64,000 nucleotides of DNA. Origin: Euonymus europaeus (lineage: Eukaryota; Streptophyta; Magnoliopsida; Celastrales; Celastraceae). Below the pieces are notes generated by a model, which was not told where the DNA came from, did no database searches, and was given only the letters and a program-made list of their open reading frames with translations. A program made the position numbers and the translations under genes. Position 1 is the first letter of the stretch, and the number at the start of each line of letters is the position of its first letter. The stretch spans positions 10,067,001 to 10,131,000 of the forward strand of contig OY756971.1 of NCBI GenBank assembly GCA_963580455.1, written 5' to 3'. Shown in pieces: positions 890 to 43,131 of the stretch.

Positions 890-891
890 AG

Positions 892-904: not shown

Positions 905-978
905 AGGTTAGGGCACTTAAGAAGTAATTTTTCTTGTGCTTGTTTGATTGTTTGATTGTGTTTAATTGTTCCATTGAA

Positions 979-1299
979 ATGGCATCTAGAGGTCAAGAGG
1001 GTCAATCTAGTGCTAGGCCTCCATTCTTTGATGGAGAAGATTACACACATTGGAAAATGTTAATGAGATTGCATTTTATATCTTTAGATGTTGATTTATG
1101 GAGTATAGTAGAAGATGGCCCCTATGTTCCTAAGGAAACCATAAAAGTTGATGGAGTTGATAAGCTTGTGTCCAAATCTAAAGAAAAATGGAACGAAAAT
1201 GATAAGAAACAAATTTCATTAAATGCTAGGTCTATGTCCATCTTGTATAATGCATTAAACAAAGTAGATGCTAAATTAATCAATAATTGCACCATCTAA
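979..1299 (+). pseudogene. gag: copia gag, 5' fragment truncated by satellite
   Basis: The start ATG at 979 (MASRGQEG) is chosen over an upstream in-frame ATG at 934, because copia Gag proteins commonly begin about 75-100 bases after the primer site with a short polar leader. The frame gives about 105 residues. They include PPFFDGEDYTHWKMLMRLHF and LWSIVEDG, the N-terminal gag signature of plant Ty1/copia elements (DUF4219/UBN2-like region). Similarity ends around KLINNC. The following codons ACC ATC TAA come from, or are shared with, the satellite word ACCATCTAAG, so the stop at 1297-1299 is satellite sequence. The rest of gag, all of pol and the 3' LTR are missing. This is a dead fragment of a nucleocapsid-type protein gene. 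Confidence 0.85.
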
Positions 1300-4826: not shown

Positions 4827-6972
4827 ATGTCAAATTTTACGAGTATAAGCTTCCTAGATTATTTCGATGCCAAAACACCAACTTTTTCTGATAAATGGAC
4901 AAAACTGTGAAGGCTCCTCTACAGAGAGAGTTGATCAACTTCGGACCATCTAAGTTGCTCGGTGTATCATTTTAATGTTCTTCTATGTCAAATTTTACAA
5001 GTATCAGCTTCAAAGATTATTTCGATGCCAAAACACCGACTTTCTATGAAAAATGGACAAAACCGTTAAAAGGTCCTCCATAGAGAGAGTTGAGCAACTT
5101 CGGACCAGAAAAGTTACTTGGTGTACACTTTTTAATGTTCTTCTATGTCAAATTTTACGAGTATAAGCTTTCTAGATTATTTCGATGCAAAAACCCCAAC
5201 TTTTTATGACAAATGCACAAAATTGTTAAAAGCTCCTCCATAGAGAGAGTTGAGAAACTTCGGATCGTCAAAGTTGCTTCGTGTACACCTTTTATTGTTG
5301 TTTTATGCCAAATTTTACGAGTATAACCATCAAGATTATTTAATTGCCAAAACACCAACTTTCTATGAGAAATGAACAAAGCCGTTTAAAGCTCCTCCAT
5401 AGAGAGAGTTGAGCAACTTCGGACCATCAAAGTTGCTCGTTGTATGCTTTTTATTGTTCTTCTATGTCAAATTTTACGAATATAAGATTTCAAGATTATT
5501 TCGAAGCAAAAACTCCAACTTTCTATGACAAATGGACAAAACCGTTAAAAGCTCCTCCGTAGAGAGAGTTGAGCAACTTCGGACCATCAACGTTGCTTGG
5601 TGTACACCTTTTATTGTTCTTCCATTTGAAATTTTACGAGTATAAGCGTCAAGATTAATTAATCGCCAAAACACCAACTTTCTACGAGAAATGAACAAAG
5701 CCGTTTAAAGCTCCTCCATAGAGAGAGTTGAGCAACTTCGAACAATCAAAGTTGCTCGATGTACACTTTTTATTGTGCTTCTATGTCAAATTTTACAAGT
5801 ATAAGCTTCCTAGATTATTTCGATGCCAAAACACCAACTTTCTATGACAGTTGGACAAAACCGTTGAAAGCAGCTCCATAGAGAGAGTTGATCAACTTCG
5901 GACCATCTAAGTTGCTCGGAGTACACTTTTTAATGTTCTTCTATGTCAAATTTTACGAGTATAAGCTTCCTAGATTACTTCGATGCAAAAGCCCTCAAAT
6001 TTCTATGACAAATGCACAAAATTGTTAAAAGCTCCTCCATAAAGAGTGTTGAGCAACTTCGGACCATCAAAGTTGCTTGGTGTACACCTTTTATTGTTCT
6101 TCCATTTGAAATTTTACGAGTATAAGCGTCAAGATTAATTAATCGCCAAAACACCAACTTTCTACGAGAAATGAACAAAGCCGTTTAAAGCTCCTCCATA
6201 GAGAGAGTTGAGCAACTTCGGACAATCAAAGTTGCTCGATGTACACTTTTTATTGTGCTTCTATGTCAAATTTTACAAGTATAAGCTTCCTAGATTATTT
6301 CAATGCCAAAACACCAACTTTCTATGACAGTTGGACAAAACAGTTGAAAGCTCCTCCATAGAGAGAGTTGATCAACTTTGAACCATCTAAGTTGCTCGGT
6401 GTAAACTTTTTAATGTTCTTCCATGTCAAATTTTACGAGGATAAGCTTCCTAGATTATTTCGATGCCAAAACAGCAACTTTCTATGACCAATGGACAAAA
6501 TTGTTAAAAGCTCCTCCATAGAGAGAGTTGAGCAACTTCGGACAATCAAAGTTGCTCGATGTACACTTTTTATTGTGCTTCTATGTCAAATTTTACGAGT
6601 ATAGGCTTCCTAGATTATTTCGATGCCAAAACACCAACTTTCTATGACAAATGGACAAAACCGTTGAAAGCTCCTCCATAGAGAGAGTTGATCAACTTCG
6701 GACCATCTAAGTTGCTCGGTGTACATTTTTTAATGTTCTTCTATGTCAAATTTTACGAGTATAAGCTTCCTAGATTATTTCGATGCAAAAGCCCCCAACT
6801 TTCTATGACAAATGCACAAAATTGTTAAAAGCTCCTCCAAAAAGAGTGTTGAGCAACTTCGGACCATAAAAGTTGCTTGGTGTACACCTTTTATTGTTCT
6901 TCCATTTGAAATTTTACGAGTATAAGTGGCAAGATTAATTAATTGCCAAAACACCAACTTTCTATGAGAAAT

Positions 6973-6977
6973 GGACA
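6973..6977 (+). other. Microhomology deletion junction (about 47 bp lost)
   Basis: In the monomer here, GAAATGGACA runs directly into ATCAAAGTTGCTCG. The bases normally lying between, from AAAGCCGTTAAAAGC to GAGCAACTTC, are missing. The shared word GGACA sits at the join, so a deletion between two GGACA copies about 47 bp apart explains it. The same junction occurs at about 17626, 28279 and 32707, making it a diagnostic marker for the larger duplications. Confidence 0.85.
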
Positions 6978-9900
6978 ATCAAAGTTGCTCGATGTACACT
7001 TTTTATTGTGCTTCTATGTCAAATTTAACGAGTATAAGCTTCCTAGATTATTTCGATGGCAAAACACTAACTTTCTATGACAAATGGACAAAGCCGTTAA
7101 AACCTCCTCCATAGAGAGAGTTGAGCAACTTCGGTCCATCAAAGTATCTCGGTGTACACTTTTTAATGTTCTTCTATGTCAAATTTTACGAGTATATGCT
7201 TCCAAGATTATTTCGATGCAAAACACCAACATGCTATGACAAATGGACAAAATCGTTAAAAGCTCCTCCATAGAGAGAGTTAATCAACTTCGGACCATCA
7301 AAGTTGCTCGTTGTACACTTTTTAATGTTCTTCTATGTTAAATTTTACGAGTATAAGCTTCATAGATTATTTCGATGCAAAAATCTCAACTTTCTATGAG
7401 AAATGGACAAAATTGTTAAAAGCTCCTCTACAGAGCGAGTTGAACATTTTCGAACCATCAAAATTGCTCGGTGAAACTTTTTATTGTGCTTGTATGTCAA
7501 ATTTTACGAGTATAAGCTTCCAAGATTATTTCGATGCCAAAACACCGACTTTCTATGACAAATGGACAAAACCGATAAAATCTCCTCCATAGAGAGAGTT
7601 GAGCAACTTCGGACCAGAAAAATTGCTCGGTGTACACTTTTTAATGTTCTTCTATGTCAAATTTTACGAGTAGAAGCTTCCTAGATTATTTCTTTGGCAA
7701 AACATTAACTTTCTATGACAGATGGACAAATCCGGTAAAAGCTCTTCCATAGAGAGAGTTGATCAAGTTTGGACTACCAAAGTTGCTCTGTGTACACTTT
7801 TTATTGTTATTCTATGTCAAATTTTATGAGTATAAGCATCCTAGATTATGTCGATGCAAAAACCCCAACTTTTTATGACAAATGCACAAAATTGTTAAAA
7901 GCTCCTCCATCGAGAGAGTTGAGAAACTTCGGACCGTCAAAGTTGCTTCGTGTACACCTTTTATTGTTCTTTTATGCCAAATTTTACGAGTATAACCATC
8001 AAGATTATTTAATTTCCAAGACACCATCTTTCTATGAGAAAAGAACAAAGCCGTTTAAAGCACCTCCGTAGAGAGAGTTGAGCAAATTCGGACCATCAAA
8101 GTTGCTCGTTGTATGCTTTTTATTGTTCTTCTATTCAAATTTTACGAATATAAGATTTCAAGATTATTTCGAAGCAAAAACACTAAATTTCTATGAAAAA
8201 TGGACAAAAGCGTTAAAAGTTCCTCCGTAGAGAGAGTTGAGCAACTTCGGAACGTCAAAGATGCAAGGTGTACACTTTTTAATGTTCTTCTATGTCAAAT
8301 TTACGAGTATAAGCTTCCTAGATTATTTCGATGCCAAAACACCAACTTTCTATGACCAATGGACAAAATTGTTAAAAGCTCCTCCATAGAGAGAGTTGAG
8401 CAACTTCGGACCATCAAAGTTGCTCGGTGTACACTTTTTATTGTGCTTCTATGTCAAATTTTACGAGTATAAGCTTCCAAGATTATTTCGATGCCAAAAC
8501 ACCAACATGCTATGACAAATGGACAAAATCGTTAAAGGCTCGTCCATAGAGAGAGTTCATCAACTTCGGACCATCAAAGTTGCTCAGTGTACACTTTTTA
8601 TTGTTTTTCTATGTCAAATTTTACGAGTATAAGCTTCCTAGATTATTTCGATGCCAAAACACAAACTTTCTATGACGAATGGACAAAATTTTTAAAAGCT
8701 CCTCCATAGAGAGAGTTGAGCAACTTTGGACCATCAAAGTTCCTCGGTGTACACTTTTTATTGTGCTTCTATGTCAAATTTTACGAGTATAAGCTTCCAA
8801 GATTATTTCGATGCCAAAACACCAACATGCTATGACAAATGGACAAAATCATTAAAGGCTCTTCCATAGAGAGAGTTGATCAACTTCGGACCATCAAAGT
8901 TGCTTGGTGTGCATTTTTTAATGTTCTTCTATGTCAAATTTACGAATATAAGCTTCATCGATTATTTCGATGGCAAAACACCAACTTTTTATGACAAATG
9001 GACAAAGCCGTTAAAAACACCTCCATAAAGAGAGTTGAGCAAGTTCGGACCATCAAAGTTGCTTGGTGTACACTTTTTATTTTTTTTCTATTTCAAATTT
9101 TATGAGTATAAGCTTCCTAGATTATTTCGATGCCAAAACACCAACTTTCTATGACGAATGGACAAAATTGTTAAAAGCTCCTCCATAGAGAGAGTTGAGC
9201 AACCTCGAACCATCAAAGTTCCTCAGTGTACACTTTTTATTGTGCTTCTATGTCAAATTTTACGAGTATAAGCTTCCAAGATTATTTCGATGCCAAAACA
9301 CCAACATGCTATGACAAATGGACAAAATCGTTAAAGGCTCGTCCATAGAGAGAGTTGATCAACTTTGGACCATCAAAGTTGCTTGGTGTACACTTTTTAA
9401 TGTTCTTCTATGTCAAATTTTACGAATATAAGCTTCATAGATTATTTCGATGGCAAAACACTATCTTTTTATGACAAATGGACAAAGCCATTAAAAGCAC
9501 CTCCATAAAGAGAGTTGAGCAAGTTCGGACCATCAAAGTTGCTTGGTGTACACTTTTTATTATTTTTCTATGTAAATTTTATGAGTATAAGCTTCCTAGA
9601 TTATTTCGATGCCAAAACACCAACTTTCTATGACGAATGGACAAAACTGTTAAAAGCTCCTCCATAGAGAGAGTTGAGCAACCTCGGACCATCAAAGTTC
9701 CTCGGTGTACACTTTTTATTGTGCTTCTATGACAAATTTTACGAGTATAAGCTTCCAAGATTATTTCGATTCCAAAACACCAACATGCTATGACAAATGG
9801 ACAAAATCGTTAAAGACTCGTCCATAGAGAGAGTTGATCAACTTCAGACCATCAAAGTTGCTCGGTGTACACCTTTTAATGTTCTTCTATGTCAAATTTT

Positions 9901-12550
9901 ACGAGTATAGGCTTCATAGATTATTTCGATGCAAAAATCCCAACTTTCTATGAGAAATAGACAAAATTGTTAAAAGCTCCTTTACAGAGAGAGTTGAGCA
10001 TTTTCGAACCATCAAAGTTGCTCGGTGAAACTTTTTATTGTGCTTCTATGTCAAATTTTACGAGTATAAGCTTCTCAGATTATTTCGATGCTAAAACACC
10101 AACTTTCTATGACAAATGGACAAAGCCGTTAAAAGCACCTTTATAAAGAGAGTTGAGCAAGTTTGGACCATCAAAGTTACTTGATGTACACTTTTTATTG
10201 TTTTTCTAAGTCAAATTTTATGAGTATAAGCTTCCTAGATTATTTTGATGCCAAAACACCAACTTTCTATGACGAATGGACAGAATTGTTAAAAGCTCCT
10301 CTATAGAGAGAGTTGAACAACCTCGGACCATCATAGTTCCTCGGTGTACACTTTTTATTGTGTTTCTATGTCAAATTTTACGAGTATAAGCTTCCAAGAT
10401 TATTTCGATTCCAAAACACCAACATGCTATGACAAATGGACAAAATCGTTAAAGGCTCGTCCATAGAGAGAGTTGATCAACTTCGGACCATCAAAGTTGC
10501 TCGGTGTACACCTTTTAATGTTCTTCTATGTCAAATTTTGCGAATATAAGCTTCCTAGATTATTTCGATGCCAAAACACAAACTTTCTATGACGAATGGA
10601 CAAAATTGTTAAAAGCTCCTCCATAGAGAGAGTTGAGCAACTTCGGACCATCAAAGTTCCTCGGTGTACACTTTTTATTGTTCTTCTATTTGAAATTTGA
10701 AGAGTATAAGCTTCAAGATTAATTAATTGCCAAAACACCAACTTTCTATGAGAAATGGAAAAAGCCATTAAAAGCTCCTCCATAGAGAGAGTTGATCAAG
10801 TTCGGAGCATCAAATTTGCTTGGTGTACACTTTGTATTGTTTTTCTATGTCAAATTTAACGAGTATAAGCTTCCTAGATTATTTCGATGGCAAAACACTA
10901 ACTTTCTATGACAAATGGACAAAGCCGTTAAAACCTCCTCCATAGAGAGAGTTGAGCAACTTCGGTCCATCAAAGTTGCTCGGTGTACACTTTTTAATGT
11001 TCTTCTATGTCAAATTTTACGAGTATAAGCTTCCAAGATTATTTGGATGCAAAACACCAACATGCTATGACAAATGGACAAAATCGTTAAAAGCTCCTCC
11101 ATAGAGAGAGTTAATCAACTTCGGACAATCAAAGCTGCTCGTTGTACAATTTTTAATGTTCTTCTATGTCAAATTTTACGAGTATAAGCTTCATAGATTA
11201 TTTCGATGCAAAAATCTCAACTTTCAATGAGAAATGGACAAAATTGTTAAAAGCTCCTCTATAGAGCGAGTTGAACATTTTCGAACCATCAAAATTGCGC
11301 GGTGAAACTTTTTATTGTGCTTGTATGTCAAATTTTACGAGTATAAGCTTCCAAGATTATTTCGATGCCAAAACACCGACTTTCTATGACAAATGGACAA
11401 AACCGATAAAAGCTCCTCCTTAGAGAGAGTTGAGCAACTTCGGACCAGAAAAATTGCTCGGTGTACACTTTTTAATGTTCTTCTATGTCAAATTTTATTT
11501 GTATAAGCTTCCTAGATTATTTCGATGCCAAAACACCAACTTTTATGACAAATGGACAAAACCGTTAAAAGCTCCTCCATAGAGAGAGTTGAGCAACTTC
11601 GGACCTTCAAAGATGCTTTGTCTACAACTTTTATTGTTCTTTTATGCCAAATTTTATGAGTATAAGCTTCCTAGATTATTTCTTTGGCAAAACATTAACT
11701 TTCTATGACAGATGGACAAATCCGTTAAAAGCTCTTGCATAGAGAGAATTGAGCAAGTTCGGACTATCAAAGTTGCTCTGTGTACACTTTTTATTGTTTT
11801 TTCTATGTCAAATTTTATGAGTATAAGCATCCACGATTATGTCAATGCAAAAACCCCAACTTTCTGTGAAAAATGCACAAAATTGTTAAAAGCTCCTCCA
11901 TCGAGAGAGTTGAGAAACTTCGGACCGTCAAAGTTGCTTCGTGTACACCTTTTATTGTTCTGTTATGCCAAATTTTTTGAGTATAACCATCAAGATTGTT
12001 TAATTGCCAAGACACCAACTTTCTATGAGAAATGAACAAAACCGTTAAAAGCTCTTCCATAGAGAGAGTTGAGCAACTTTGGACCATCAAAGTTACTCGT
12101 TGTATGCTTTTTATTGTTCTTCTATGTCAAATTTTATGAATATAAGATTTCATGATTATTTCGAAGCAAAAACACCAACTTTCTATGACAAATGGACAAA
12201 ACCGCTAAAAGCACCTCCGTAGAGAGAGTTGAGTAACTTCGGACCATCGAAGTTGCACGGTGTACACTTTTTAATGTTCTTCTATGTCAAATTTTACGAG
12301 TATAAGCTTCCTAGATTATTTCGATGCAAAAGCCCTCAAATTTCTATGACAAATGCACAAAATTGTTAAAAGCTCCTCCATAAAGAGTGTTGAGCAACTT
12401 CGGACCATCAAAGTTGCTTGGTGTACACCTTTTATTGTTCTTCCATTTGAAATTTTACGAGTATAAGCGTCAAGATTAATTAATCGCCAAAACACCAACT
12501 TTCTACGAGAAATGAACAAAGCCGTTTAAAGCTCCTCCATAGAGAGAGTT

Positions 12551-12578
12551 GAGCAACTTCGGACAATCAAAGTTGCTC
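12551..12578 (+). repeat. Representative 9-bp dyad in the satellite monomer
   Basis: GAGCAACTT (12551-12559) and its exact reverse complement AAGTTGCTC (12570-12578) flank a 10-nt loop. This arrangement is part of the monomer consensus and recurs in many monomers of both blocks. Variant monomers weaken it, such as GATCAACTT, GAGAAACTT, or AGAAAAGTTACTC on the right arm. A hairpin or protein-binding role is inference. Confidence 0.8.
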
Positions 12579-15500
12579 GATGTACACTTTTTATTGTGCT
12601 TCAATGTCAAATTTTACGAGTATAAGCTTCCTAGATTATTTCGATGCCAAAACACCAACTTTCTATGACAGTTGGACAAAACCGTTGAAAGCTCCTCCAT
12701 AGAGAGAGTTGATCAACTTTGAACCATCTAAGTTGCTCGGTGTACACTTTTTAATGTTCTTCTATGTCAAATTTTACGAGGATAAGCTTCCTAGATTATT
12801 TCGATGCCAAAACAGCAACTTTCTATGACCAATGGACAAAATTGTTAAAAGCTCCTCCATAGAGAGAGTTGAGCAACTTCGGACAATCAAAGTTGCTCGA
12901 TGTACACTTTTTATTGTGCTTCTATGTCAAATTTTACGAGTATAAGCTTCCTAGATTATTTCGATGCCAAAACACCAACTTTCTATGACAAATGGACAAA
13001 ACCGTTGAAAGCTCCTCCATAGAGAGAGTTGATCAACTTCGGACCATCTAAGTTGCTCGGTGTACATTTTTTAATGTTCTTCTATGTCAAATTTTACGAG
13101 TATAAGCTTCCTAGATTATTTCGATGCAAAAGCCCCCAACTTTCTATGACAAATGCACAAAATTGTTAAAAGCTCCTCCAAAAAGAGTGTTGAGCAACTT
13201 CGGACCATAAAAGTTGCTTGGTGTACACCTTTTATTGTTCTTCCATTTGAAATTTTACGAGTATAAGTGTCAAGATTAATTAATTGCCAAAACACCAACT
13301 TTCTATGAGAAATGGACAAAGCCATTAAAAGGTCCTCCATAGAGAGAGTTTAGCAAGTTCGGACCATCAAAGTTGCTTGGTACATGTACACTTTGTATTG
13401 TTTTTCTATGTCAAATTTTATGAGTATAAGCTTCCTCGATTATTTCGATGCCAAAACACCAACTTTCTATGACCAATGGAAAAAATTGTTAAAAGCACCT
13501 CTATAGAGAGAGTTGAGCATTTTCGAACCATCAAAGTTGCTCGGTGAAACTTTTTACTGTGCTTATATGTCAAATTTTACGAGTATAAGCTTTCAAGATT
13601 ATTTCGATGCCAAAACACCAACTTTTTATGACAAATGGACAAAACCGTTAAAAGCCCCATAGAGAGAGTTGAGCAACTTCGGACCATCAAAGTTGCACGG
13701 TGTACACTTTTTAATGTTCTTCTATGTCAAATTTTACAAGTATAAGCTTCCTAGATTATTTTGATGCCAAAACACCAACTTTCTGTGACCAATGGACAAA
13801 ATTGTTAAAAGCTCCTCCATAGAGAGAGTTGAGCAACTTCGGACCATCTAAGTTGCTCGATCTACACTGTTTATTGTGCTTCTATGTCAAATTTTACGAG
13901 TATAAGCTTCCTAGATTATTTCGATGCCAAAACACCAACTTTCTATGACAAATGGACAAAACCGTTAAAAGCTGCTCCATAGAGAGAGTTGAGCAACTTC
14001 GGACCAGAAAAGTTACTCGGTGTACACTTCTATGTCAAATTTTACAAGTATAAGCATTCTAGATTATGTCGATGCAAAAACCCCAACTTTTTATGACAAA
14101 TCCACAAAATTGTTAAAAGCTCCTCCATAGAGAGAGTTGAGAAACTTCGGACCGTCAAAGTTGCTTCGTGTACACCTTTTATTGTTCTTTTACGCCAAAT
14201 TTTACGAGTATAACCATCAAGATTATTTAATTGCCAAAACACCAACTTTCTATGAGAAATGAACAAAGCCGTTTAAAGCTCCTCCATAGAGAGAGTTGAG
14301 CAACTTCGGACCATCAAAGTTGCTCGTTGTATGCTTTTTATTTTTCTTCTATGTCAAATTTTACGAATATAAGATTTCAAGATTATTTCGAAGCAAAAAC
14401 ACCAACATTTTATGACAAATGGACAAAACCGTTAAAAGCTCCTCCGTAGAGAGAGTTGAGCAACTTCGGACCATCAAAAGTTGTACGGTGTACACTTTTT
14501 AATGTTCTTCTATGTCACATTTTACGAGTATAAGCTTCCTAGATTATTTCCATGCCAAAACAGCAACTTTCTATGACCAATGGACAAAATTGTTAAAAGC
14601 TCCTCCATAGAGAGAGTTGAGCAACTTCGGACAATCAAAGTTGCTCGATGTACACTTTTTATTGTGCTTCTATGTCAAATTTTACGAGTATAAGCTTCCT
14701 AGATTATTTCGATGCCAAAACAACAACTTTCTATGACAAATGGACAAAACCGTTGAAAGCTCCTGCATAGAGAGAGTTGATCAACTTCGGACCAGAAAAG
14801 TTCTCGGTGTACACTTTTTAATGTTCTTCTATTTCAAATTTTACAAGTATAAGTAAGCTTGCTAGATTATTTCGATGCGAAAACACCAACTTTTATGACA
14901 AATGGACAAAACCGTTAAAAGCTCCTCCATAGAGAGAGTTGAGCAATTTCGGACCGTCAAAGATGCTCTGTGTACAACTTTTATTGTTCTTTTTTGCCAA
15001 ATTTTACGAGTATAAACTTCAAGATTATTTAATTGCCAAAACACCAACTTTCTATGAGAAACGGACAAAGCCGTAAAAAGCTCTTCTATTGAGAGAGTTG
15101 AGCTACTTCGGACCATCAAAGTTGCTCGGTGTACACTTTTTAATGTTCTTCTATGTCAAATTTTACGAGTATAAGCTTCCTAGATTATTTCTTTGGCAAA
15201 ACATTAACTTTCTATGACAGATGGACAAATCCGTTAAAAGCTCTTCCATAGAGAGAGTGGAGCAAGTTCGGACCATCAAAGTTGCTCGATGTACACTTTT
15301 TATTGTGCTTCTGTGTCAAATTTTACGAGTATAAGCTTCCTAGATTATTTCGATGCCAAAACACCAACTTTTTCTGATAAATGAACAAAGCCGTTTAAAG
15401 CTCCTCCATAGAGAGAGTTGAGCAACTTCGGACAATCAAAGTTGCTCGATGTGCACTTTTTATTATGCTTCTATGTCAAATTTCACGAGTATAAGCTTCC

Positions 15501-17521
15501 GAGATTATTTCGATGCCGAAACACCAACTTTCTATGACCAATGAACAAAATTGTTAAATGCTCCTCTATAGAGAGAGTTGAGCATTTTCGAACCATCAAA
15601 GTTGCTCGGTGAAACTTTTTACTGTGCTTCTATGTCAAATTTTACGAGTATAAGCTTTCAAGATTATTTCGATGCCAAAACACCAACTTTCTATGACAAA
15701 TGGACAAAACCGTTAAAAGCTCCTCCATAGAGAGAGTTGAGCAACTTCGGACCATCTAAGTTGCTCGATCTACACTGCTTATTGTGCTTCTATGTCAAAT
15801 TTTACGAGTATAAGCTTCCTAGATTATTTCGATGCCAAAACGCCAACTTTCTATGACAAATGGACAAAACCGTTAAAAGCTCCTCCGTAGAGAGAGTTGA
15901 GCAACTTCGGACCAGAAAAGTTACTCGGTGTACATTTTTTAATGTTCTTCTATGTCAAATTTTACAAGTATAAGTAAGCTTCCTAGATTATTTCGATGCG
16001 AAAACACCAACTTTTATGACAAATGGACAAAACCGTTAAAAGCTCCTCCATAGAGAGAGTTGAGCAACTTCGGACCGTCAAAGATGCTCTGTATACAACT
16101 TTTATTGTTCTTTTATGCCAAATTTTACGAGTATAAGTAAGCGTCCTAGATTATTTCGATGCCAAAACACCAACTTTTTCTGATAAACGGACAAAACCGT
16201 TAAAAGCTCCTCCACAGAGAGAGTTGATCAACTTCGGACTATCTAAGTTGCTCGGTGTAACTTTTTACTGTGCTTTTATGTCAAATTTTACGAGTATAAG
16301 CTTCCTAGATTATTTCGATGCCAAAACACCAACTTTTTCTGATAAATGGACAAAACTGTAAAGGCTCCTCCACAGAGAGAGTTGATCAACTTCGGACCAT
16401 CTAAGTTGCTCGGTGTATCATTTTAATGTTCTTCTATGTCAAATTTTACAAGTATCAGCTTCAAAGATTATTTCGATGCCAAAACACCGACTTTCTATGA
16501 AAAATGGACAAAACCGTTAAAAGCTCCTCCATAGAGAGAGTTGAGCAACTTCGGACCAGAAAAGTTACTTGGTGTACACTTTTTAATGTTCTTCTATGTC
16601 AAATTTTACGAGTATAAGCTTTCTAGATTATTTCGATGCAAAAACCCCAACTTTTTATGACAAATGCACAAAATTGTTAAAAGCTCCTCCATAGAGAGAG
16701 TTGAGAAACTTCGGATCGTCAAAGTTGCTTCGTGTACACCTTTTATTGTTGTTTTATGCCAAATTTTACGAGTATAACCGTCAAGATTATTTAATTGCCA
16801 AAACACCAACTTTCTATGAGAAATGAACAAAAGCCGTTTAAAGCTCCTCCATAGAGAGAGTTGAGCAACTTCGGACCATCAAAGTTGCTCGTTGTATGCT
16901 TTTTATTGTTCTTCTATGTCAAATTTTACGAATATAAGATTTCAAGAGTATTTCGAAGCAAAAACTCCAACTTTCTATGACAAATGGACAAAACCGTTAA
17001 AAGCTCCTCCGTAGAGAGAGTTGAGCAACTTCGGACCATCAACGTTGCTTGGTGTACACCTTTTATTGTTCTTCCATTTGAAATTTTACGAGTATAAGCG
17101 TCAAGATTAATTAATCGCCAAAACACCAACTTTCTACGAGAAATGAACAAAGCCGTTTAAAGCTCCTCCATAGAGAGAGTTGAGCAACTTCGGACAATCA
17201 AAGTTGCTCGATGTACACTTTTTATTGTGCTTCTATGTCAAATTTTACGAGTATAAGCTTCCTAGATTATTTCGATGCCAAAACACCAACTTTCTATGAC
17301 AGTTGGACAAAACCGTTGAAAGCAGCTCCATAGAGAGAGTTGATCAACTTCGGACCATCTAAGTTGCTCGGAGTACACATTTTTAATGTTCTTCTATGTC
17401 AAATTTTACGAGTATAAGCTTCCTAGATTATTTCGATGCAAAAGCCCTCAAATTTCTATGACAAATGCACAAAATTGTTAAAAGCTCCTCCAAAAAGAGT
17501 GTTGAGCAACTTCGGACCATC

Positions 17522-20500
17522 AAAGTTGCTTGGTGTACACCTTTTATTGTTCTTCCATTTGAAATTTTACGAGTATAAGTGGCAAGATTAATTAATTGCC
17601 AAAACACCAACTTTCTATGAGAAATGGACAATCAAAGTTGCTCGATGTACACTTTTTATTGTGCTTCTATGTCAAATTTAACGAGTATAAGCTTCCTAGA
17701 TTATTTCGATGGCAAAACACTAACTTTCTATGACAAATGGACAAAGCCGTTAAAACCTCCTCCATAGAGAGAGTTGAGCAACTTCGGTCCATCAAAGTAT
17801 CTCGGTGTACACTTTTTAATGTTCTTCTATGTCAAATTTTACGAGTATATGCTTCCAAGATTATTTCGATGCAAAACACCAACATGCTATGACAAATGGA
17901 CAAAATCGTTAAAAGCTCCTCCATAGAGAGAGTTAATCAACTTCGGACCATCAAAGTTGCTCGTTGTACACTTTTTAATGTTCTTCTATGTTAAATTTTA
18001 CGAGTATAAGCTTCATAGATTATTTCGATGCAAAAATCTCAACTTTCTATGAGAAATGGACAAAATTGTTAAAAGCTCCTCTACAGAGCGAGTTGAACAT
18101 TTTCGAACCATCAAAATTGCTCGGTGAAACTTTTTATTGTGCTTGTATGTCAAATTTTACGAGTATAAGCTTCCAAGATTATTTCGATGCCAAAACACCG
18201 ACTTTCTATGACAAATGGACAAAACCGATAAAATCTCCTCCATAGAGAGAGTTGAGCAACTTCGGACCAGAAAAATTGCTCGGTGTACACTTTTTAATGT
18301 TCTTCTATGTCAAATTTTACGAGTAGAAGCTTCCTAGATTATTTCTTTGGCAAAACATTAACTTTCTATGACAGATGGACAAATCCGGTAAAAGCTCTTC
18401 CATAGAGAGAGTTGATCAAGTTTGGACTACCAAAGTTGCTCTGTGTACACTTTTTATTGTTATTCTATGTCAAATTTTATGAGTATAAGCATCCTAGATT
18501 ATGTCGATGCAAAAACCCCAACTTTTTATGACAAATGCACAAAATTGTTAAAAGCTCCTCCATCGAGAGAGTTGAGAAACTTCGGACCGTCAAAGTTGCT
18601 TCGTGTACACCTTTTATTGTTCTTTTATGCCAAATTTTACGAGTATAACCATCAAGATTATTTAATTTCCAAGACACCATCTTTCTATGAGAAAAGAACA
18701 AAGCCGTTTAAAGCACCTCCGTAGAGAGAGTTGAGCAAATTCGGACCATCAAAGTTGCTCGTTGTATGCTTTTTATTGTTCTTCTATTCAAATTTTACGA
18801 ATATAAGATTTCAAGATTATTTCGAAGCAAAAACACTAAATTTCTATGAAAAATGGACAAAAGCGTTAAAAGTTCCTCCGTAGAGAGAGTTGAGCAACTT
18901 CGGAACGTCAAAGATGCAAGGTGTACACTTTTTAATGTTCTTCTATGTCAAATTTACGAGTATAAGCTTCCTAGATTATTTCGATGCCAAAACACCAACT
19001 TTCTATGACCAATGGACAAAATTGTTAAAAGCTCCTCCATAGAGAGAGTTGAGCAACTTCGGACCATCAAAGTTGCTCGGTGTACACTTTTTATTGTGCT
19101 TCTATGTCAAATTTTACGAGTATAAGCTTCCAAGATTATTTCGATGCCAAAACACCAACATGCTATGACAAATGGACAAAATCGTTAAAGGCTCGTCCAT
19201 AGAGAGAGTTCATCAACTTCGGACCATCAAAGTTGCTCAGTGTACACTTTTTATTGTTTTTCTATGTCAAATTTTACGAGTATAAGCTTCCTAGATTATT
19301 TCGATGCCAAAACACAAACTTTCTATGACGAATGGACAAAATTTTTAAAAGCTCCTCCATAGAGAGAGTTGAGCAACTTTGGACCATCAAAGTTCCTCGG
19401 TGTACACTTTTTATTGTGCTTCTATGTCAAATTTTACGAGTATAAGCTTCCAAGATTATTTCGATGCCAAAACACCAACATGCTATGACAAATGGACAAA
19501 ATCATTAAAGGCTCTTCCATAGAGAGAGTTGATCAACTTCGGACCATCAAAGTTGCTTGGTGTGCATTTTTTAATGTTCTTCTATGTCAAATTTACGAAT
19601 ATAAGCTTCATCGATTATTTCGATGGCAAAACACCAACTTTTTATGACAAATGGACAAAGCCGTTAAAAACACCTCCATAAAGAGAGTTGAGCAAGTTCG
19701 GACCATCAAAGTTGCTTGGTGTACACTTTTTATTTTTTTTCTATTTCAAATTTTATGAGTATAAGCTTCCTAGATTATTTCGATGCCAAAACACCAACTT
19801 TCTATGACGAATGGACAAAATTGTTAAAAGCTCCTCCATAGAGAGAGTTGAGCAACCTCGAACCATCAAAGTTCCTCAGTGTACACTTTTTATTGTGCTT
19901 CTATGTCAAATTTTACGAGTATAAGCTTCCAAGATTATTTCGATGCCAAAACACCAACATGCTATGACAAATGGACAAAATCGTTAAAGGCTCGTCCATA
20001 GAGAGAGTTGATCAACTTTGGACCATCAAAGTTGCTTGGTGTACACTTTTTAATGTTCTTCTATGTCAAATTTTACGAATATAAGCTTCATAGATTATTT
20101 CGATGGCAAAACACTATCTTTTTATGACAAATGGACAAAGCCATTAAAAGCACCTCCATAAAGAGAGTTGAGCAAGTTCGGACCATCAAAGTTGCTTGGT
20201 GTACACTTTTTATTATTTTTCTATGTAAATTTTATGAGTATAAGCTTCCTAGATTATTTCGATGCCAAAACACCAACTTTCTATGACGAATGGACAAAAC
20301 TGTTAAAAGCTCCTCCATAGAGAGAGTTGAGCAACCTCGGACCATCAAAGTTCCTCGGTGTACACTTTTTATTGTGCTTCTATGACAAATTTTACGAGTA
20401 TAAGCTTCCAAGATTATTTCGATTCCAAAACACCAACATGCTATGACAAATGGACAAAATCGTTAAAGACTCGTCCATAGAGAGAGTTGATCAACTTCAG

Positions 20501-23500
20501 ACCATCAAAGTTGCTCGGTGTACACCTTTTAATGTTCTTCTATGTCAAATTTTACGAGTATAGGCTTCATAGATTATTTCGATGCAAAAATCCCAACTTT
20601 CTATGAGAAATAGACAAAATTGTTAAAAGCTCCTTTACAGAGAGAGTTGAGCATTTTCGAACCATCAAAGTTGCTCGGTGAAACTTTTTATTGTGCTTCT
20701 ATGTCAAATTTTACGAGTATAAGCTTCTCAGATTATTTCGATGCTAAAACACCAACTTTCTATGACAAATGGACAAAGCCGTTAAAAGCACCTTTATAAA
20801 GAGAGTTGAGCAAGTTTGGACCATCAAAGTTACTTGATGTACACTTTTTATTGTTTTTCTAAGTCAAATTTTATGAGTATAAGCTTCCTAGATTATTTTG
20901 ATGCCAAAACACCAACTTTCTATGACGAATGGACAGAATTGTTAAAAGCTCCTCTATAGAGAGAGTTGAACAACCTCGGACCATCATAGTTCCTCGGTGT
21001 ACACTTTTTATTGTGTTTCTATGTCAAATTTTACGAGTATAAGCTTCCAAGATTATTTCGATTCCAAAACACCAACATGCTATGACAAATGGACAAAATC
21101 GTTAAAGGCTCGTCCATAGAGAGAGTTGATCAACTTCGGACCATCAAAGTTGCTCGGTGTACACCTTTTAATGTTCTTCTATGTCAAATTTTGCGAATAT
21201 AAGCTTCCTAGATTATTTCGATGCCAAAACACAAACTTTCTATGACGAATGGACAAAATTGTTAAAAGCTCCTCCATAGAGAGAGTTGAGCAACTTCGGA
21301 CCATCAAAGTTCCTCGGTGTACACTTTTTATTGTTCTTCTATTTGAAATTTGAAGAGTATAAGCTTCAAGATTAATTAATTGCCAAAACACCAACTTTCT
21401 ATGAGAAATGGAAAAAGCCATTAAAAGCTCCTCCATAGAGAGAGTTGATCAAGTTCGGAGCATCAAATTTGCTTGGTGTACACTTTGTATTGTTTTTCTA
21501 TGTCAAATTTAACGAGTATAAGCTTCCTAGATTATTTCGATGGCAAAACACTAACTTTCTATGACAAATGGACAAAGCCGTTAAAACCTCCTCCATAGAG
21601 AGAGTTGAGCAACTTCGGTCCATCAAAGTTGCTCGGTGTACACTTTTTAATGTTCTTCTATGTCAAATTTTACGAGTATAAGCTTCCAAGATTATTTGGA
21701 TGCAAAACACCAACATGCTATGACAAATGGACAAAATCGTTAAAAGCTCCTCCATAGAGAGAGTTAATCAACTTCGGACAATCAAAGCTGCTCGTTGTAC
21801 AATTTTTAATGTTCTTCTATGTCAAATTTTACGAGTATAAGCTTCATAGATTATTTCGATGCAAAAATCTCAACTTTCAATGAGAAATGGACAAAATTGT
21901 TAAAAGCTCCTCTATAGAGCGAGTTGAACATTTTCGAACCATCAAAATTGCGCGGTGAAACTTTTTATTGTGCTTGTATGTCAAATTTTACGAGTATAAG
22001 CTTCCAAGATTATTTCGATGCCAAAACACCGACTTTCTATGACAAATGGACAAAACCGATAAAAGCTCCTCCTTAGAGAGAGTTGAGCAACTTCGGACCA
22101 GAAAAATTGCTCGGTGTACACTTTTTAATGTTCTTCTATGTCAAATTTTATTTGTATAAGCTTCCTAGATTATTTCGATGCCAAAACACCAACTTTTATG
22201 ACAAATGGACAAAACCGTTAAAAGCTCCTCCATAGAGAGAGTTGAGCAACTTCGGACCTTCAAAGATGCTTTGTCTACAACTTTTATTGTTCTTTTATGC
22301 CAAATTTTATGAGTATAAGCTTCCTAGATTATTTCTTTGGCAAAACATTAACTTTCTATGACAGATGGACAAATCCGTTAAAAGCTCTTGCATAGAGAGA
22401 ATTGAGCAAGTTCGGACTATCAAAGTTGCTCTGTGTACACTTTTTATTGTTTTTTCTATGTCAAATTTTATGAGTATAAGCATCCACGATTATGTCAATG
22501 CAAAAACCCCAACTTTCTGTGAAAAATGCACAAAATTGTTAAAAGCTCCTCCATCGAGAGAGTTGAGAAACTTCGGACCGTCAAAGTTGCTTCGTGTACA
22601 CCTTTTATTGTTCTGTTATGCCAAATTTTTTGAGTATAACCATCAAGATTGTTTAATTGCCAAGACACCAACTTTCTATGAGAAATGAACAAAACCGTTA
22701 AAAGCTCTTCCATAGAGAGAGTTGAGCAACTTTGGACCATCAAAGTTACTCGTTGTATGCTTTTTATTGTTCTTCTATGTCAAATTTTATGAATATAAGA
22801 TTTCATGATTATTTCGAAGCAAAAACACCAACTTTCTATGACAAATGGACAAAACCGCTAAAAGCACCTCCGTAGAGAGAGTTGAGTAACTTCGGACCAT
22901 CGAAGTTGCACGGTGTACACTTTTTAATGTTCTTCTATGTCAAATTTTACGAGTATAAGCTTCCTAGATTATTTCGATGCAAAAGCCCTCAAATTTCTAT
23001 GACAAATGCACAAAATTGTTAAAAGCTCCTCCATAAAGAGTGTTGAGCAACTTCGGACCATCAAAGTTGCTTGGTGTACACCTTTTATTGTTCTTCCATT
23101 TGAAATTTTACGAGTATAAGCGTCAAGATTAATTAATCGCCAAAACACCAACTTTCTACGAGAAATGAACAAAGCCGTTTAAAGCTCCTCCATAGAGAGA
23201 GTTGAGCAACTTCGGACAATCAAAGTTGCTCGATGTACACTTTTTATTGTGCTTCTATGTCAAATTTTACGAGTATAAGCTTCCTAGATTATTTCGATGC
23301 CAAAACACCAACTTTCTATGACAGTTGGACAAAACCGTTGAAAGCTCCTCCATAGAGAGAGTTGATCAACTTTGAACCATCTAAGTTGCTCGGTGTACAC
23401 TTTTTAATGTTCTTCTATGTCAAATTTTACGAGGATAAGCTTCCTAGATTATTTCGATGCCAAAACAGCAACTTTCTATGACCAATGGACAAAATTGTTA

Positions 23501-26500
23501 AAAGCTCCTCCATAGAGAGAGTTGAGCAACTTCGGACAATCAAAGTTGCTCGATGTACACTTTTTATTGTGCTTCTATGTCAAATTTTACGAGTATAAGC
23601 TTCCTAGATTATTTCGATGCCAAAACACCAACTTTCTATGACAAATGGACAAAACCGTTGAAAGCTCCTCCATAGAGAGAGTTGATCAACTTCGGACCAT
23701 CTAAGTTGCTCGGTGTACATTTTTTAATGTTCTTCTATGTCAAATTTTACGAGTATAAGCTTCCTAGATTATTTCGATGCAAAAGCCCCCAACTTTCTAT
23801 GACAAATGCACAAAATTGTTAAAAGCTCCTCCAAAAAGAGTGTTGAGCAACTTCGGACCATAAAAGTTGCTTGGTGTACACCTTTTATTGTTCTTCCATT
23901 TGAAATTTTACGAGTATAAGTGTCAAGATTAATTAATTGCCAAAACACCAACTTTCTATGAGAAATGGACAAAGCCATTAAAAGGTCCTCCATAGAGAGA
24001 GTTTAGCAAGTTCGGACCATCAAAGTTGCTTGGTACATGTACACTTTGTATTGTTTTTCTATGTCAAATTTTATGAGTATAAGCTTCCTCGATTATTTCG
24101 ATGCCAAAACACCAACTTTCTATGACCAATGGAAAAAATTGTTAAAAGCACCTCTATAGAGAGAGTTGAGCATTTTCGAACCATCAAAGTTGCTCGGTGA
24201 AACTTTTTACTGTGCTTATATGTCAAATTTTACGAGTATAAGCTTTCAAGATTATTTCGATGCCAAAACACCAACTTTTTATGACAAATGGACAAAACCG
24301 TTAAAAGCCCCATAGAGAGAGTTGAGCAACTTCGGACCATCAAAGTTGCACGGTGTACACTTTTTAATGTTCTTCTATGTCAAATTTTACAAGTATAAGC
24401 TTCCTAGATTATTTTGATGCCAAAACACCAACTTTCTGTGACCAATGGACAAAATTGTTAAAAGCTCCTCCATAGAGAGAGTTGAGCAACTTCGGACCAT
24501 CTAAGTTGCTCGATCTACACTGTTTATTGTGCTTCTATGTCAAATTTTACGAGTATAAGCTTCCTAGATTATTTCGATGCCAAAACACCAACTTTCTATG
24601 ACAAATGGACAAAACCGTTAAAAGCTGCTCCATAGAGAGAGTTGAGCAACTTCGGACCAGAAAAGTTACTCGGTGTACACTTCTATGTCAAATTTTACAA
24701 GTATAAGCATTCTAGATTATGTCGATGCAAAAACCCCAACTTTTTATGACAAATCCACAAAATTGTTAAAAGCTCCTCCATAGAGAGAGTTGAGAAACTT
24801 CGGACCGTCAAAGTTGCTTCGTGTACACCTTTTATTGTTCTTTTACGCCAAATTTTACGAGTATAACCATCAAGATTATTTAATTGCCAAAACACCAACT
24901 TTCTATGAGAAATGAACAAAGCCGTTTAAAGCTCCTCCATAGAGAGAGTTGAGCAACTTCGGACCATCAAAGTTGCTCGTTGTATGCTTTTTATTTTTCT
25001 TCTATGTCAAATTTTACGAATATAAGATTTCAAGATTATTTCGAAGCAAAAACACCAACATTTTATGACAAATGGACAAAACCGTTAAAAGCTCCTCCGT
25101 AGAGAGAGTTGAGCAACTTCGGACCATCAAAAGTTGTACGGTGTACACTTTTTAATGTTCTTCTATGTCACATTTTACGAGTATAAGCTTCCTAGATTAT
25201 TTCCATGCCAAAACAGCAACTTTCTATGACCAATGGACAAAATTGTTAAAAGCTCCTCCATAGAGAGAGTTGAGCAACTTCGGACAATCAAAGTTGCTCG
25301 ATGTACACTTTTTATTGTGCTTCTATGTCAAATTTTACGAGTATAAGCTTCCTAGATTATTTCGATGCCAAAACAACAACTTTCTATGACAAATGGACAA
25401 AACCGTTGAAAGCTCCTGCATAGAGAGAGTTGATCAACTTCGGACCAGAAAAGTTCTCGGTGTACACTTTTTAATGTTCTTCTATTTCAAATTTTACAAG
25501 TATAAGTAAGCTTGCTAGATTATTTCGATGCGAAAACACCAACTTTTATGACAAATGGACAAAACCGTTAAAAGCTCCTCCATAGAGAGAGTTGAGCAAT
25601 TTCGGACCGTCAAAGATGCTCTGTGTACAACTTTTATTGTTCTTTTTTGCCAAATTTTACGAGTATAAACTTCAAGATTATTTAATTGCCAAAACACCAA
25701 CTTTCTATGAGAAACGGACAAAGCCGTAAAAAGCTCTTCTATTGAGAGAGTTGAGCTACTTCGGACCATCAAAGTTGCTCGGTGTACACTTTTTAATGTT
25801 CTTCTATGTCAAATTTTACGAGTATAAGCTTCCTAGATTATTTCTTTGGCAAAACATTAACTTTCTATGACAGATGGACAAATCCGTTAAAAGCTCTTCC
25901 ATAGAGAGAGTGGAGCAAGTTCGGACCATCAAAGTTGCTCGATGTACACTTTTTATTGTGCTTCTGTGTCAAATTTTACGAGTATAAGCTTCCTAGATTA
26001 TTTCGATGCCAAAACACCAACTTTTTCTGATAAATGAACAAAGCCGTTTAAAGCTCCTCCATAGAGAGAGTTGAGCAACTTCGGACAATCAAAGTTGCTC
26101 GATGTGCACTTTTTATTATGCTTCTATGTCAAATTTCACGAGTATAAGCTTCCGAGATTATTTCGATGCCGAAACACCAACTTTCTATGACCAATGAACA
26201 AAATTGTTAAATGCTCCTCTATAGAGAGAGTTGAGCATTTTCGAACCATCAAAGTTGCTCGGTGAAACTTTTTACTGTGCTTCTATGTCAAATTTTACGA
26301 GTATAAGCTTTCAAGATTATTTCGATGCCAAAACACCAACTTTCTATGACAAATGGACAAAACCGTTAAAAGCTCCTCCATAGAGAGAGTTGAGCAACTT
26401 CGGACCATCTAAGTTGCTCGATCTACACTGCTTATTGTGCTTCTATGTCAAATTTTACGAGTATAAGCTTCCTAGATTATTTCGATGCCAAAACGCCAAC

Positions 26501-28174
26501 TTTCTATGACAAATGGACAAAACCGTTAAAAGCTCCTCCGTAGAGAGAGTTGAGCAACTTCGGACCAGAAAAGTTACTCGGTGTACATTTTTTAATGTTC
26601 TTCTATGTCAAATTTTACAAGTATAAGTAAGCTTCCTAGATTATTTCGATGCGAAAACACCAACTTTTATGACAAATGGACAAAACCGTTAAAAGCTCCT
26701 CCATAGAGAGAGTTGAGCAACTTCGGACCGTCAAAGATGCTCTGTATACAACTTTTATTGTTCTTTTATGCCAAATTTTACGAGTATAAGTAAGCGTCCT
26801 AGATTATTTCGATGCCAAAACACCAACTTTTTCTGATAAACGGACAAAACCGTTAAAAGCTCCTCCACAGAGAGAGTTGATCAACTTCGGACTATCTAAG
26901 TTGCTCGGTGTAACTTTTTACTGTGCTTTTATGTCAAATTTTACGAGTATAAGCTTCCTAGATTATTTCGATGCCAAAACACCAACTTTTTCTGATAAAT
27001 GGACAAAACTGTAAAGGCTCCTCCACAGAGAGAGTTGATCAACTTCGGACCATCTAAGTTGCTCGGTGTATCATTTTAATGTTCTTCTATGTCAAATTTT
27101 ACAAGTATCAGCTTCAAAGATTATTTCGATGCCAAAACACCGACTTTCTATGAAAAATGGACAAAACCGTTAAAAGCTCCTCCATAGAGAGAGTTGAGCA
27201 ACTTCGGACCAGAAAAGTTACTTGGTGTACACTTTTTAATGTTCTTCTATGTCAAATTTTACGAGTATAAGCTTTCTAGATTATTTCGATGCAAAAACCC
27301 CAACTTTTTATGACAAATGCACAAAATTGTTAAAAGCTCCTCCATAGAGAGAGTTGAGAAACTTCGGATCGTCAAAGTTGCTTCGTGTACACCTTTTATT
27401 GTTGTTTTATGCCAAATTTTACGAGTATAACCGTCAAGATTATTTAATTGCCAAAACACCAACTTTCTATGAGAAATGAACAAAAGCCGTTTAAAGCTCC
27501 TCCATAGAGAGAGTTGAGCAACTTCGGACCATCAAAGTTGCTCGTTGTATGCTTTTTATTGTTCTTCTATGTCAAATTTTACGAATATAAGATTTCAAGA
27601 GTATTTCGAAGCAAAAACTCCAACTTTCTATGACAAATGGACAAAACCGTTAAAAGCTCCTCCGTAGAGAGAGTTGAGCAACTTCGGACCATCAACGTTG
27701 CTTGGTGTACACCTTTTATTGTTCTTCCATTTGAAATTTTACGAGTATAAGCGTCAAGATTAATTAATCGCCAAAACACCAACTTTCTACGAGAAATGAA
27801 CAAAGCCGTTTAAAGCTCCTCCATAGAGAGAGTTGAGCAACTTCGGACAATCAAAGTTGCTCGATGTACACTTTTTATTGTGCTTCTATGTCAAATTTTA
27901 CGAGTATAAGCTTCCTAGATTATTTCGATGCCAAAACACCAACTTTCTATGACAGTTGGACAAAACCGTTGAAAGCAGCTCCATAGAGAGAGTTGATCAA
28001 CTTCGGACCATCTAAGTTGCTCGGAGTACACATTTTTAATGTTCTTCTATGTCAAATTTTACGAGTATAAGCTTCCTAGATTATTTCGATGCAAAAGCCC
28101 TCAAATTTCTATGACAAATGCACAAAATTGTTAAAAGCTCCTCCAAAAAGAGTGTTGAGCAACTTCGGACCATC
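17522..28174 (+). repeat. 10,653-bp super-unit, copy B
   Basis: This is the second full copy of the interval at 6869-17521, directly abutting it in the same orientation. The sequence to the left of its end matches the sequence to the left of its start (17428-17521 and 28081-28174), as expected for a simple tandem duplication by unequal exchange. One base difference from copy A was seen (23256), so the copies are not strictly identical. No retrotransposon interrupts either copy. Confidence 0.93.
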
Positions 28175-31100
28175 AAAGTTGCTTGGTGTACACCTTTTAT
28201 TGTTCTTCCATTTGAAATTTTACGAGTATAAGTGGCAAGATTAATTAATTGCCAAAACACCAACTTTCTATGAGAAATGGACAATCAAAGTTGCTCGATG
28301 TACACTTTTTATTGTGCTTCTATGTCAAATTTAACGAGTATAAGCTTCCTAGATTATTTCGATGGCAAAACACTAACTTTCTATGACAAATGGACAAAGC
28401 CGTTAAAACCTCCTCCATAGAGAGAGTTGAGCAACTTCGGTCCATCAAAGTATCTCGGTGTACACTTTTTAATGTTCTTCTATGTCAAATTTTACGAGTA
28501 TATGCTTCCAAGATTATTTCGATGCAAAACACCAACATGCTATGACAAATGGACAAAATCGTTAAAAGCTCCTCCATAGAGAGAGTTAATCAACTTCGGA
28601 CCATCAAAGTTGCTCGTTGTACACTTTTTAATGTTCTTCTATGTTAAATTTTACGAGTATAAGCTTCATAGATTATTTCGATGCAAAAATCTCAACTTTC
28701 TATGAGAAATGGACAAAATTGTTAAAAGCTCCTCTACAGAGCGAGTTGAACATTTTCGAACCATCAAAATTGCTCGGTGAAACTTTTTATTGTGCTTGTA
28801 TGTCAAATTTTACGAGTATAAGCTTCCAAGATTATTTCGATGCCAAAACACCGACTTTCTATGACAAATGGACAAAACCGATAAAATCTCCTCCATAGAG
28901 AGAGTTGAGCAACTTCGGACCAGAAAAATTGCTCGGTGTACACTTTTTAATGTTCTTCTATGTCAAATTTTACGAGTAGAAGCTTCCTAGATTATTTCTT
29001 TGGCAAAACATTAACTTTCTATGACAGATGGACAAATCCGGTAAAAGCTCTTCCATAGAGAGAGTTGATCAAGTTTGGACTACCAAAGTTGCTCTGTGTA
29101 CACTTTTTATTGTTATTCTATGTCAAATTTTACAAGTATAAGCATCCTAGATTATGTCGATGCAAAAACTCCAACTTTTTACGACAAATGCACAAAATTG
29201 TTAAAAGCTCCTCCATAGAGAGAGTCTAGAAACTTCGGACCGTCAAAGTTGCTACGTGTACACCTTTTATTGTTCTTTTTTGCCAAATTTTACGAGTATA
29301 ACCATCAAGATTATTTAATTGCCAAAACACCAACTTTCTATGAGAAATGAACAAAGTCGTTTAAAGTTCCTCCATAGAGAGAGTCGAGCAACTTCGGACC
29401 ATCAAAGTTGCTCGTTGTATGCTTTTTATTGTTCTTCTATGTCAAATTTTATATATATAAGATTTCAAGATTATTTCGAAGCAAAAACACCAGCATTCTA
29501 TGACAAATGGACAAAACCGTTAAAAGCTCCTCCGTAGAGAGAGTTGAGCAACTTCGGACCATCAAAGTTGCTTGGTGTACACCATTTATTGTTCTTCCAT
29601 TTGAAATTTTATGAGTATAAGCGTCAAGATTAATTAATTGCCAAAACACCAACTTTCTATGAGAAATGGACAAAGCCCTTAAAAGCTCCTCCATAGAGAG
29701 AGTTCAGCAAGTTCGGACCATCAAAGTTGCTTGGTACATGTAAACTTTGTATTATTTTTCTATGTCAAATTTTATGAGTATAAGCTTCCTAGAATATTTC
29801 GATGCCAAAACACCAACTTTCTATGACAAATGGACAAAATTGTTAAAAACTCCGTAGAAAGAGTTGAGCAACTTTGGACCATCAAAGTTGCTCGGTGTAC
29901 ACTTTTTAACGTTCTTCTATGTCAAATTTTACGAGTATAAGCTTCCTAGATTATTTTGATCCCAAAACACCAACTTTCTATGACCAATGGACAAAATTGT
30001 TAAAAGCTCCTCCATAGAGAGAGTTGAGCAACTTCGGACCATCTAAGTTGCTCGATCTACACTGTTTATTGTGCTTCTATGTCAAATTTTACGAGTATAA
30101 GCTTCCTAGATTATTTCGATGCCGAAACACCAACTTTCTATGACCTATGGACAAAACCGTTAAAAGCTCCTCCATAGAGAGAGTTGAGCAACTTCGGACC
30201 AGAAAAGTTACTCGGTGTACACTTTTTTATGTTCTTCTATGTCAAATTTTACAAGTATAAGCATCCTAGAATATGTCGATGCAAAAACCCCAACTTTTAA
30301 TGACAAATGCACAAAATTGTTAAAAGCTCCTCCGTAGAGAGAGTTGAGAAACTTCGGACCGTCAAAGTTGCTTCGTGTACACCTTTTATTGTTCTTTTAT
30401 GCCAAATTTTACGAGTATAACCATCAAGATTATTTAATTGCCAAAACACCAACTTTCTATGAGAAATGAACAAAGCCATTTAAAGCTCCTCCGTAGAGAG
30501 AGTTGAGCAACTTCGGACCATCAAAAGTTGCACGGTGTACACTTTTTAATATTCTTCTATGTCAAATTTTACGAGTATAAGCTTCCTAGATTATTTCGAT
30601 GCAAAACAGCAACTTTCTATGACCAATGGACAAAATTTTTAAAAGCTCCTCCATAGAGAGAGTTGAGCAACTTCGAACAATCAAAGTTGCTCGATGTACA
30701 CTTTTTGTTGTGCTTCTATGTCAAATTTTACGAGTATAAGCTTCCTAGATTATTTCGATGCCAAAACACCAACTTTCTATGACAAATGGACAAAATCGTT
30801 GAAAGCTCCTCCATAGAGAGAGTTGATCAACTTCGGACCATCTAAGTTGCTCGGTGTACACTTTTTAATAATCTTCTATGTCAAATTTTACGAGTATAAG
30901 CTTCCTAGATTATTTCGATGCCAAAACACCAACTTTCTATGACCAATGGACAAAATTATTAAAAGCTCATCCATAGAGAGAGTTGAGCAACTTCGGACAA
31001 TCAAAGTTGCTCAATGTACACTTTTTATTGTGCTTCTATGTCAAATTTTACGAGTATAAGCTTCCTAGATTATTTCGATGCCAAAACACCAACTTTCTAT

Positions 31101-42171: not shown

Positions 42172-42231
42172 ATAGTGAGCGCAGGAGTCTAATTTTAGGG
42201 CTTCTAGAGTACGTGGGAGGGAGTGAAGTCA

Positions 42232-43096: not shown

Positions 43097-43131
43097 AGTG
43101 ATTCCTTTTTGGCTGGTTTTATTTTATTTTT

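Follow-up and report, generated by a model that had tools for sequence, protein, structure and literature searches.

A probable recent tandem duplication of 67 monomers in a centromere-like satellite array of Euonymus europaeus

How do two adjacent blocks of a satellite array come to match almost base for base when the monomers inside each of them are diverged? The question is raised by a 10,653-bp block of Euonymus europaeus that stands in tandem in a 64,000-bp stretch of contig C15 (C15:10067001-10131000). This whole stretch is called the window here, and positions without the contig prefix are counted from its first base. We analysed it within 264 kb of sequence (C15:9927001-10191000, the window and 200 kb around it) from a contig of 24.0 Mb, in an assembly of 443 Mb and 30 contigs; array-wide counts below refer to these 264 kb. 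We think it likely that the block is real and arose very recently, as a tandem segmental duplication of 67 monomers in a centromere-like array, by exchange between two older paralogous blocks, X1 and X2, or by break-induced replication. The features on which this reading turns are the following.

1291-41606, + strand: satellite array of ~160-bp monomers in the left part of the window (Tandem Repeats Finder (TRF), monomer decomposition and consensus match)
6869-17521, + strand: copy 1 of the 10,653-bp block, with 67 monomer starts and A at 12603
17522-28174, + strand: copy 2 of the block, whose sole difference from copy 1 is T at 23256
28175-29132, + strand: start of a third copy, a 958-bp tract identical in all four X blocks of the window (see below)

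The original prediction was of two full adjacent copies and 958 bp of a third, with a single base difference. Alignment of 6869-17521 to 17522-28174 confirmed these coordinates and returned one mismatch, 12603 against 23256, which is also the only one over the whole run of 6869-18479 versus 17522-29132 (shift 10,653). The copy number is 2.1, and a further 142 bp on the left (6727-6868) are still near-identical, with 3 mismatches. Counting gave 67 monomer starts per unit, where about 67 had been estimated: one monomer is truncated to 117 bp and the others measure 148-164 bp.

Both satellite arrays in the window, left and right, have a 160-bp period (TRF). The 66 full-length monomers of copy 1 share a mean identity of 85.4%, and immediate neighbours 84.7%, which bears out the earlier claim that neighbouring monomers differ by many bases. 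No identical pair was found among the 2,145 monomer pairs of copy 1, and from lag 1 to lag 10 mean identity stays within 0.847-0.861, with no favoured lag. The match between the copies is therefore not explained by ordinary monomer similarity. Two adjacent many-monomer blocks are near-identical here, and the monomers inside the block are diverged.

Near-identical tandem satellite copies are a classic site of assembly error, and the block is known from the assembly alone; one real copy could have been laid down twice. The single base difference bears directly on this. At the monomer position of 12603, T occurs in 1,262 of 1,331 monomers, C in 58 and A in 11. T is also present at 19 of the 20 listed sites that have identical 40-bp flanks on each side, and among these sites A occurs only at 12603. 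The A at 12603 therefore looks like a private derived change in copy 1, which at this site stands alone against its nearest paralogues, and such a change speaks against a haplotype or assembly duplication. The original prediction had used the substitution in the same sense; the private-looking base strengthens that argument, while the A may instead be a base-call error, which weakens it. Moreover, the usual heterozygosity of outcrossing plants is far above 1 in 10,653, so that two haplotypes laid end to end are unlikely, and the 264 kb contain no N. Sites 12603 and 23256 are separated by 10,653 bp, and unique flanks lie 5.7-5.9 kb away from them, within ordinary long-read reach; if the difference is real, the copies are separable by reads of at least 10.7 kb. 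Finally, eleven other satellite block duplications of varied period and divergence lie nearby. Taken together, these points make an assembly artefact unlikely.

These other duplications were drawn from the 90 longest of 254 ungapped self-matching diagonals of at least 700 bp. Thirteen adjacent block duplications were found, 12 of satellite and one of a Copia element (period 7,251 bp). The satellite periods are 10,653, 7,938, 6,770, 5,103, 4,963, 4,471, 4,428, 4,306, 4,150, 3,183, 2,175 and 1,600 bp, and the eleven shorter ones correspond to 10 to 52 monomers. The 10,653-bp block combines the longest period with the lowest divergence of the 12 (0.017% with a 69-bp left extension, against 0.048-0.818% in the others). 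Blocks of at least 2 kb and at most 0.2% divergence make up 46% of the 216.6 kb of satellite, and those of at least 1 kb and at most 1% make up 74%. Copy numbers are 1.73-2.11 in 10 of the 12 satellite duplications, and 2.73 and 2.83 in the other two.

The small copy numbers and varied periods bear on two further explanations. Diverged monomers within near-identical units, with two whole units and a partial third, are what a true higher-order repeat with a 67-monomer unit, in the style of human alpha satellite, would show. Such a repeat is nevertheless extremely improbable: there are 2.1 copies only, and the neighbouring blocks have periods of 10-52 monomers, so the block is better explained by one duplication. 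We also searched the genome with the first 1,001 bp of the unit and scored 40 of 8,723 candidates. All 118 matches were on C15, and among the candidates scored the unit start was near-identical at four places only, all in the window, the next match being at 94%. A regular higher-order repeat was rejected because the same unit is not repeated through the array and each neighbouring domain has another period. The original prediction of homogenisation in units of about 67 monomers was likewise not supported, since block sizes range from 10 to 67 monomers and no block exceeds 2.83 copies. Rolling-circle copying of an excised satellite circle followed by reinsertion, a recognised satellite route in the sections of a review used here (PMC12321929), would be expected to leave many copies away from the source. 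Here two copies lie adjacent, as they do in most of the 12 duplications, and we regard this route as highly improbable; the two-copy outcomes argue for single exchanges or single copying rounds.

The junctions and flanks of the block carry further evidence, which involves three more features on the + strand.

4261-6868, + strand: older paralogue of the block end (15712-17521), with 1,794 matches, 15 mismatches and 800 gap positions (five monomers)
6978, + strand: register break J, where 47 bp of monomer are missing, with the same letters at 17631, 28284 and 32712
27224-31746 versus 31652-36174, + strand: a separate adjacent duplication of 4,428 bp with 13 mismatches, 8 of them in the left edge

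The junction at 17522 is in phase: the one register break close to it, J at 17631, occurs in copy 1 too, at 6978. This agrees with the other duplications. Copies abut in 9 of the 12, and none of these nine has a register break at its junction that is absent from the first copy. By arithmetic, the chance of nine in-phase junctions out of nine is ~1e-9 if phase were random and a match within 7 bp counted as in phase. In the other three, 557-861 bp lie between the copies, and in two of these the gap contains a break of a type that accounts for 29 of the 62 register breaks detected and that occurs only in the array's right part. We take the nine in-phase junctions to mean that pairing went by homology. 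Non-homologous or microhomology-mediated end joining has been proposed, in the sections of a maize study used here (PMC4806543), to explain adjacent duplications of CentC as well as one of 22.7 kb in maize CEN10, and the ends of the older deletion J share a short GGAC, as end joining could leave. With all nine abutting junctions in phase and an older paralogy on the left, we judge out-of-phase end joining very unlikely as the source of the block.

The unit-start block, X, is present four times in the window, at 6869, 17522, 28175 and 32603; there are four because the separate 4,428-bp duplication follows the 10,653-bp block. On the left of the block, once an 800-bp gap is admitted, 4261-6868 and 15712-17521 align over 1,809 bases with 99.2% identity. 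Past 29132 on the right, the sequence is 94% identical to what follows copy 1, and further on 85-91% in 320-bp segments. Because identity drops there to near the level of random in-register pairs, the exchange point would lie within the 958-bp tract. Were the tract as diverged as the left flank (0.8%), it should hold about 8 differences (by arithmetic), and none is seen among the X blocks. The exchange may have taken place in the longest stretch of perfect homology, or else the tract was homogenised by repair.

These observations suggest the following course of events. An older duplication would have left paralogous blocks, X1 at the left edge and X2 ~10.7 kb to the right. X1 and X2 would then have paired out of place, with their monomers in phase, and unequal exchange between sister chromatids, or break-induced replication that resumed in the wrong block, would have recopied everything between them. 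The original prediction had proposed recent unequal exchange or break-induced replication of a large, fresh block, and the in-phase junction, the near-identity of the copies and the older paralogy on the left all favour it. The exchange, its form as crossover or break-induced replication, and a place in the centromere are inferred.

Several points weigh against this course of events. The two-copy state is read from an assembly, in which an artefact is unlikely but conceivable, and the register method is blind to phase shifts of up to ~7 bp. The older paralogy is found on the left side only, and there only across the 800-bp gap; to the right of the tract, X1 and X2 resemble each other no better than in-register pairs picked at random. 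Taken as plain 500-bp stretches, the flanks of the block, at 0.908 and 0.914, fall inside the range of 400 such pairs drawn from the left and middle arrays (mean 0.873, 5-95% range 0.831-0.938). Finally, sister crossover and break-induced replication predict the same product here. Across the array as a whole, at least one 500-bp flank reaches 0.95 or more in 5 of the 12 duplications, against 3.7% of the random pairs, in a test that compares two flanks per case with single null pairs and in which some flanks may be parts of the same duplication split by an indel. This is suggestive of duplications favouring long older homology, a pattern that the 10,653-bp block itself does not follow in this test.

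The J deletion gives the history of the block a relative order. It is the reason that the unit is made of 66 monomers and a truncated one and is no whole multiple of 160 bp. No register break was found in the 103-kb array to the left of the window's array. Three sequences in that array are the closest relatives of the unit start (94, 94 and 93% identity among the 40 of 8,723 candidates scored), and they are 47 bases longer (1,048 against 1,001), the length that a form without the deletion should have. Since the left array lacks register breaks and these relatives carry the extra bases, J is probably derived, with a single origin, and probably spread by block duplication. Its spread would have followed the order of the older duplication that gave X1 and X2, then the 10,653-bp duplication, then the 4,428-bp one.

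The events can also be ordered by divergence, which is 1 in 10,653 for the large block, 5 in 4,050 within the core of the 4,428-bp duplication and 4 in 1,467 for the long terminal repeats (LTRs) of a retrotransposon further right in the window. At a plant substitution rate of 7e-9 per site per year, the rough age of the 10,653-bp block is ~6,700 years (170-37,400), a figure to be read with the caution that satellites may mutate faster. The same rough calculation gives ~88,000 years (29,000-206,000) for the 4,428-bp block and ~195,000 years (53,000-499,000) for the retrotransposon.

Two features complete the window.

41607-51074, + strand: Ty3/gypsy LTR retrotransposon, Athila-like, with LTRs at 41607-43073 and 49608-51074
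51075-64000, + strand: the satellite array resumes, including a stretch of a domain that has a 6,770-bp block of its own, partly beyond the window

In the 264 kb, satellite amounts to 216,593 bp in three + strand runs (C15:9944488-10047836, C15:10068291-10108607 and C15:10118074 to the end of the region analysed), a sum that leaves out a 4.2-kb run at the left end of the region and 530 bp in reverse. The runs are interrupted by a 20.4-kb Copia block and the 9.5-kb Ty3/gypsy element, and the right end of the array lies beyond the region analysed. The array runs in one orientation (+) for 216.6 kb at ~10 Mb of a 24.0-Mb contig that we take to be a chromosome. Judged by its sequence, a mid-contig satellite array holding an Athila-like element looks like a plant centromere. 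The reversed satellite (C15:9943964-9944493), at the left array edge, is the only reversed stretch in the 264 kb.

The LTRs of the Ty3/gypsy element are 1,467 bp each and differ by 4 mismatches, and an AAAGC target-site duplication lies on both sides; the right edge of the left array (41606) was placed by the LTR start and the target-site copy. Within the satellite array the element keeps long open gag and pol frames. Domains of gag, reverse transcriptase, RNase H and integrase were recognised, and a match to protease fell short of the curated cut-off. The element is called Athila-like from its primer-site motif, which we take to be typical of Athila/Tat elements. Relatives of its gag are 56-83% identical (best 120 of 2,639), and the named ones among these are all from plants except for one record of Candidatus Burkholderia verschuerenii, which is probably host DNA.

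The Copia block (C15:10047837-10068290, its right end being window positions 1-1290) has satellite on both sides and holds 2.82 head-to-tail copies of a 7,251-bp unit, with three primer-site motifs and 10 mismatches in 13,178. Both ends are broken inside gag; the left one has a short filler in which gag sequence from close by is repeated, and across the block the satellite changes phase (67 to 2). The block may be an inserted concatemer from a one-LTR circle, or LTR exchange and two later deletions may have produced it. The Copia gag has relatives of 39-67% identity (best 120 of 148). Beside the left array end, reading frames at about 4678-9265 within C15:9927001-9937000 presumably resemble an endogenous plant pararetrovirus.

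To the right, a domain at C15:10123440-10148621 (from ~56440 in the window) consists of its own 6,770-bp block in 2.83 copies, with a further related copy at C15:10144107-10148621. The next domain (C15:10149663-10190955) contains 29 occurrences of a monomer variant that lacks ~55 bp (consensus position 11 to 67). This variant was not found to the left of C15:10149663 in the 264 kb, so the domain has a variant of its own.

Overall, the array reads as a patchwork of homology-guided segmental duplications of varied size. A broader proposal, which we regard as possible though doubtful, is that exchange is guided by kilobase-long paralogous blocks from earlier duplications and not by single monomers, so that each duplication would ease the next and the array would grow patchily, in steps of tens of monomers (up to 67), with no regular higher-order repeat. 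If this is true, growth steps exceed the range of 1-31 monomers described from mutation lines of Arabidopsis. Large and young, and flanked by older layers whose order can be worked out, the block would be a clean record of one growth step of an array. The 958-bp tract, deletion J and base 12603 offer markers for typing other individuals, which would give the frequency and size of growth steps in a plant other than Arabidopsis or maize.

How does the locus compare with known systems? Pieces of the satellite of 18-20 bases, searched in part on both strands, had no match in the PubMed Central (PMC) literature searched. CANR4 of Rosa, described in the portions of PMC7262465 and PMC12222009 consulted as a ~159-160-bp centromeric satellite of centromeres that also carry Athila insertions, resembles the Euonymus array in monomer length and in its Athila-like insertion. 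It was rejected as the same satellite because the window holds no match to its published probe and primers, the best sites having 6-9 mismatches in 19-22 bases. Human alpha satellite, as far as the material consulted describes it, likewise has near-identical units with diverged monomers inside, yet it forms long arrays of one unit, whereas here there are 2.1 copies and neighbours with differing periods.

Closer parallels come from three plant cases. In maize, according to the sections of PMC4806543 used, seven CentC repeats were dated by divergence at 98,000 to 498,000 years, the youngest (98,000 years) being an adjacent duplication of 10 monomers in CEN10; that duplication and a 22.7-kb segmental duplication in CEN10 were attributed to alternative end joining. 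The likeness lies in adjacent near-identical blocks of diverged centromeric monomers that can be dated by divergence, and the difference in the Euonymus block having 67 monomers, far less divergence and junctions in phase. Pea CEN6, in the part of its description available, has duplicated large parts of satellite arrays, seen as long parallel dot-plot lines, and patchy local homogenisation. Its satellites are others, and the two concerned are not among the families said there to bind CENH3. In Arabidopsis mutation-accumulation lines, in-frame centromere gains of 1-31 monomers were found (Dong et al. 2025, as told in PMC12321929, a review whose relevant sections favour break-induced replication). 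These gains too are whole-monomer, in-phase insertions that copy adjacent sequence; the 67-monomer block exceeds the range told there, and it is read here from one assembly, not observed as it arose. On this comparison, the 10,653-bp duplication appears to belong with the maize CEN10, pea CEN6 and Arabidopsis cases, at their large and young end.

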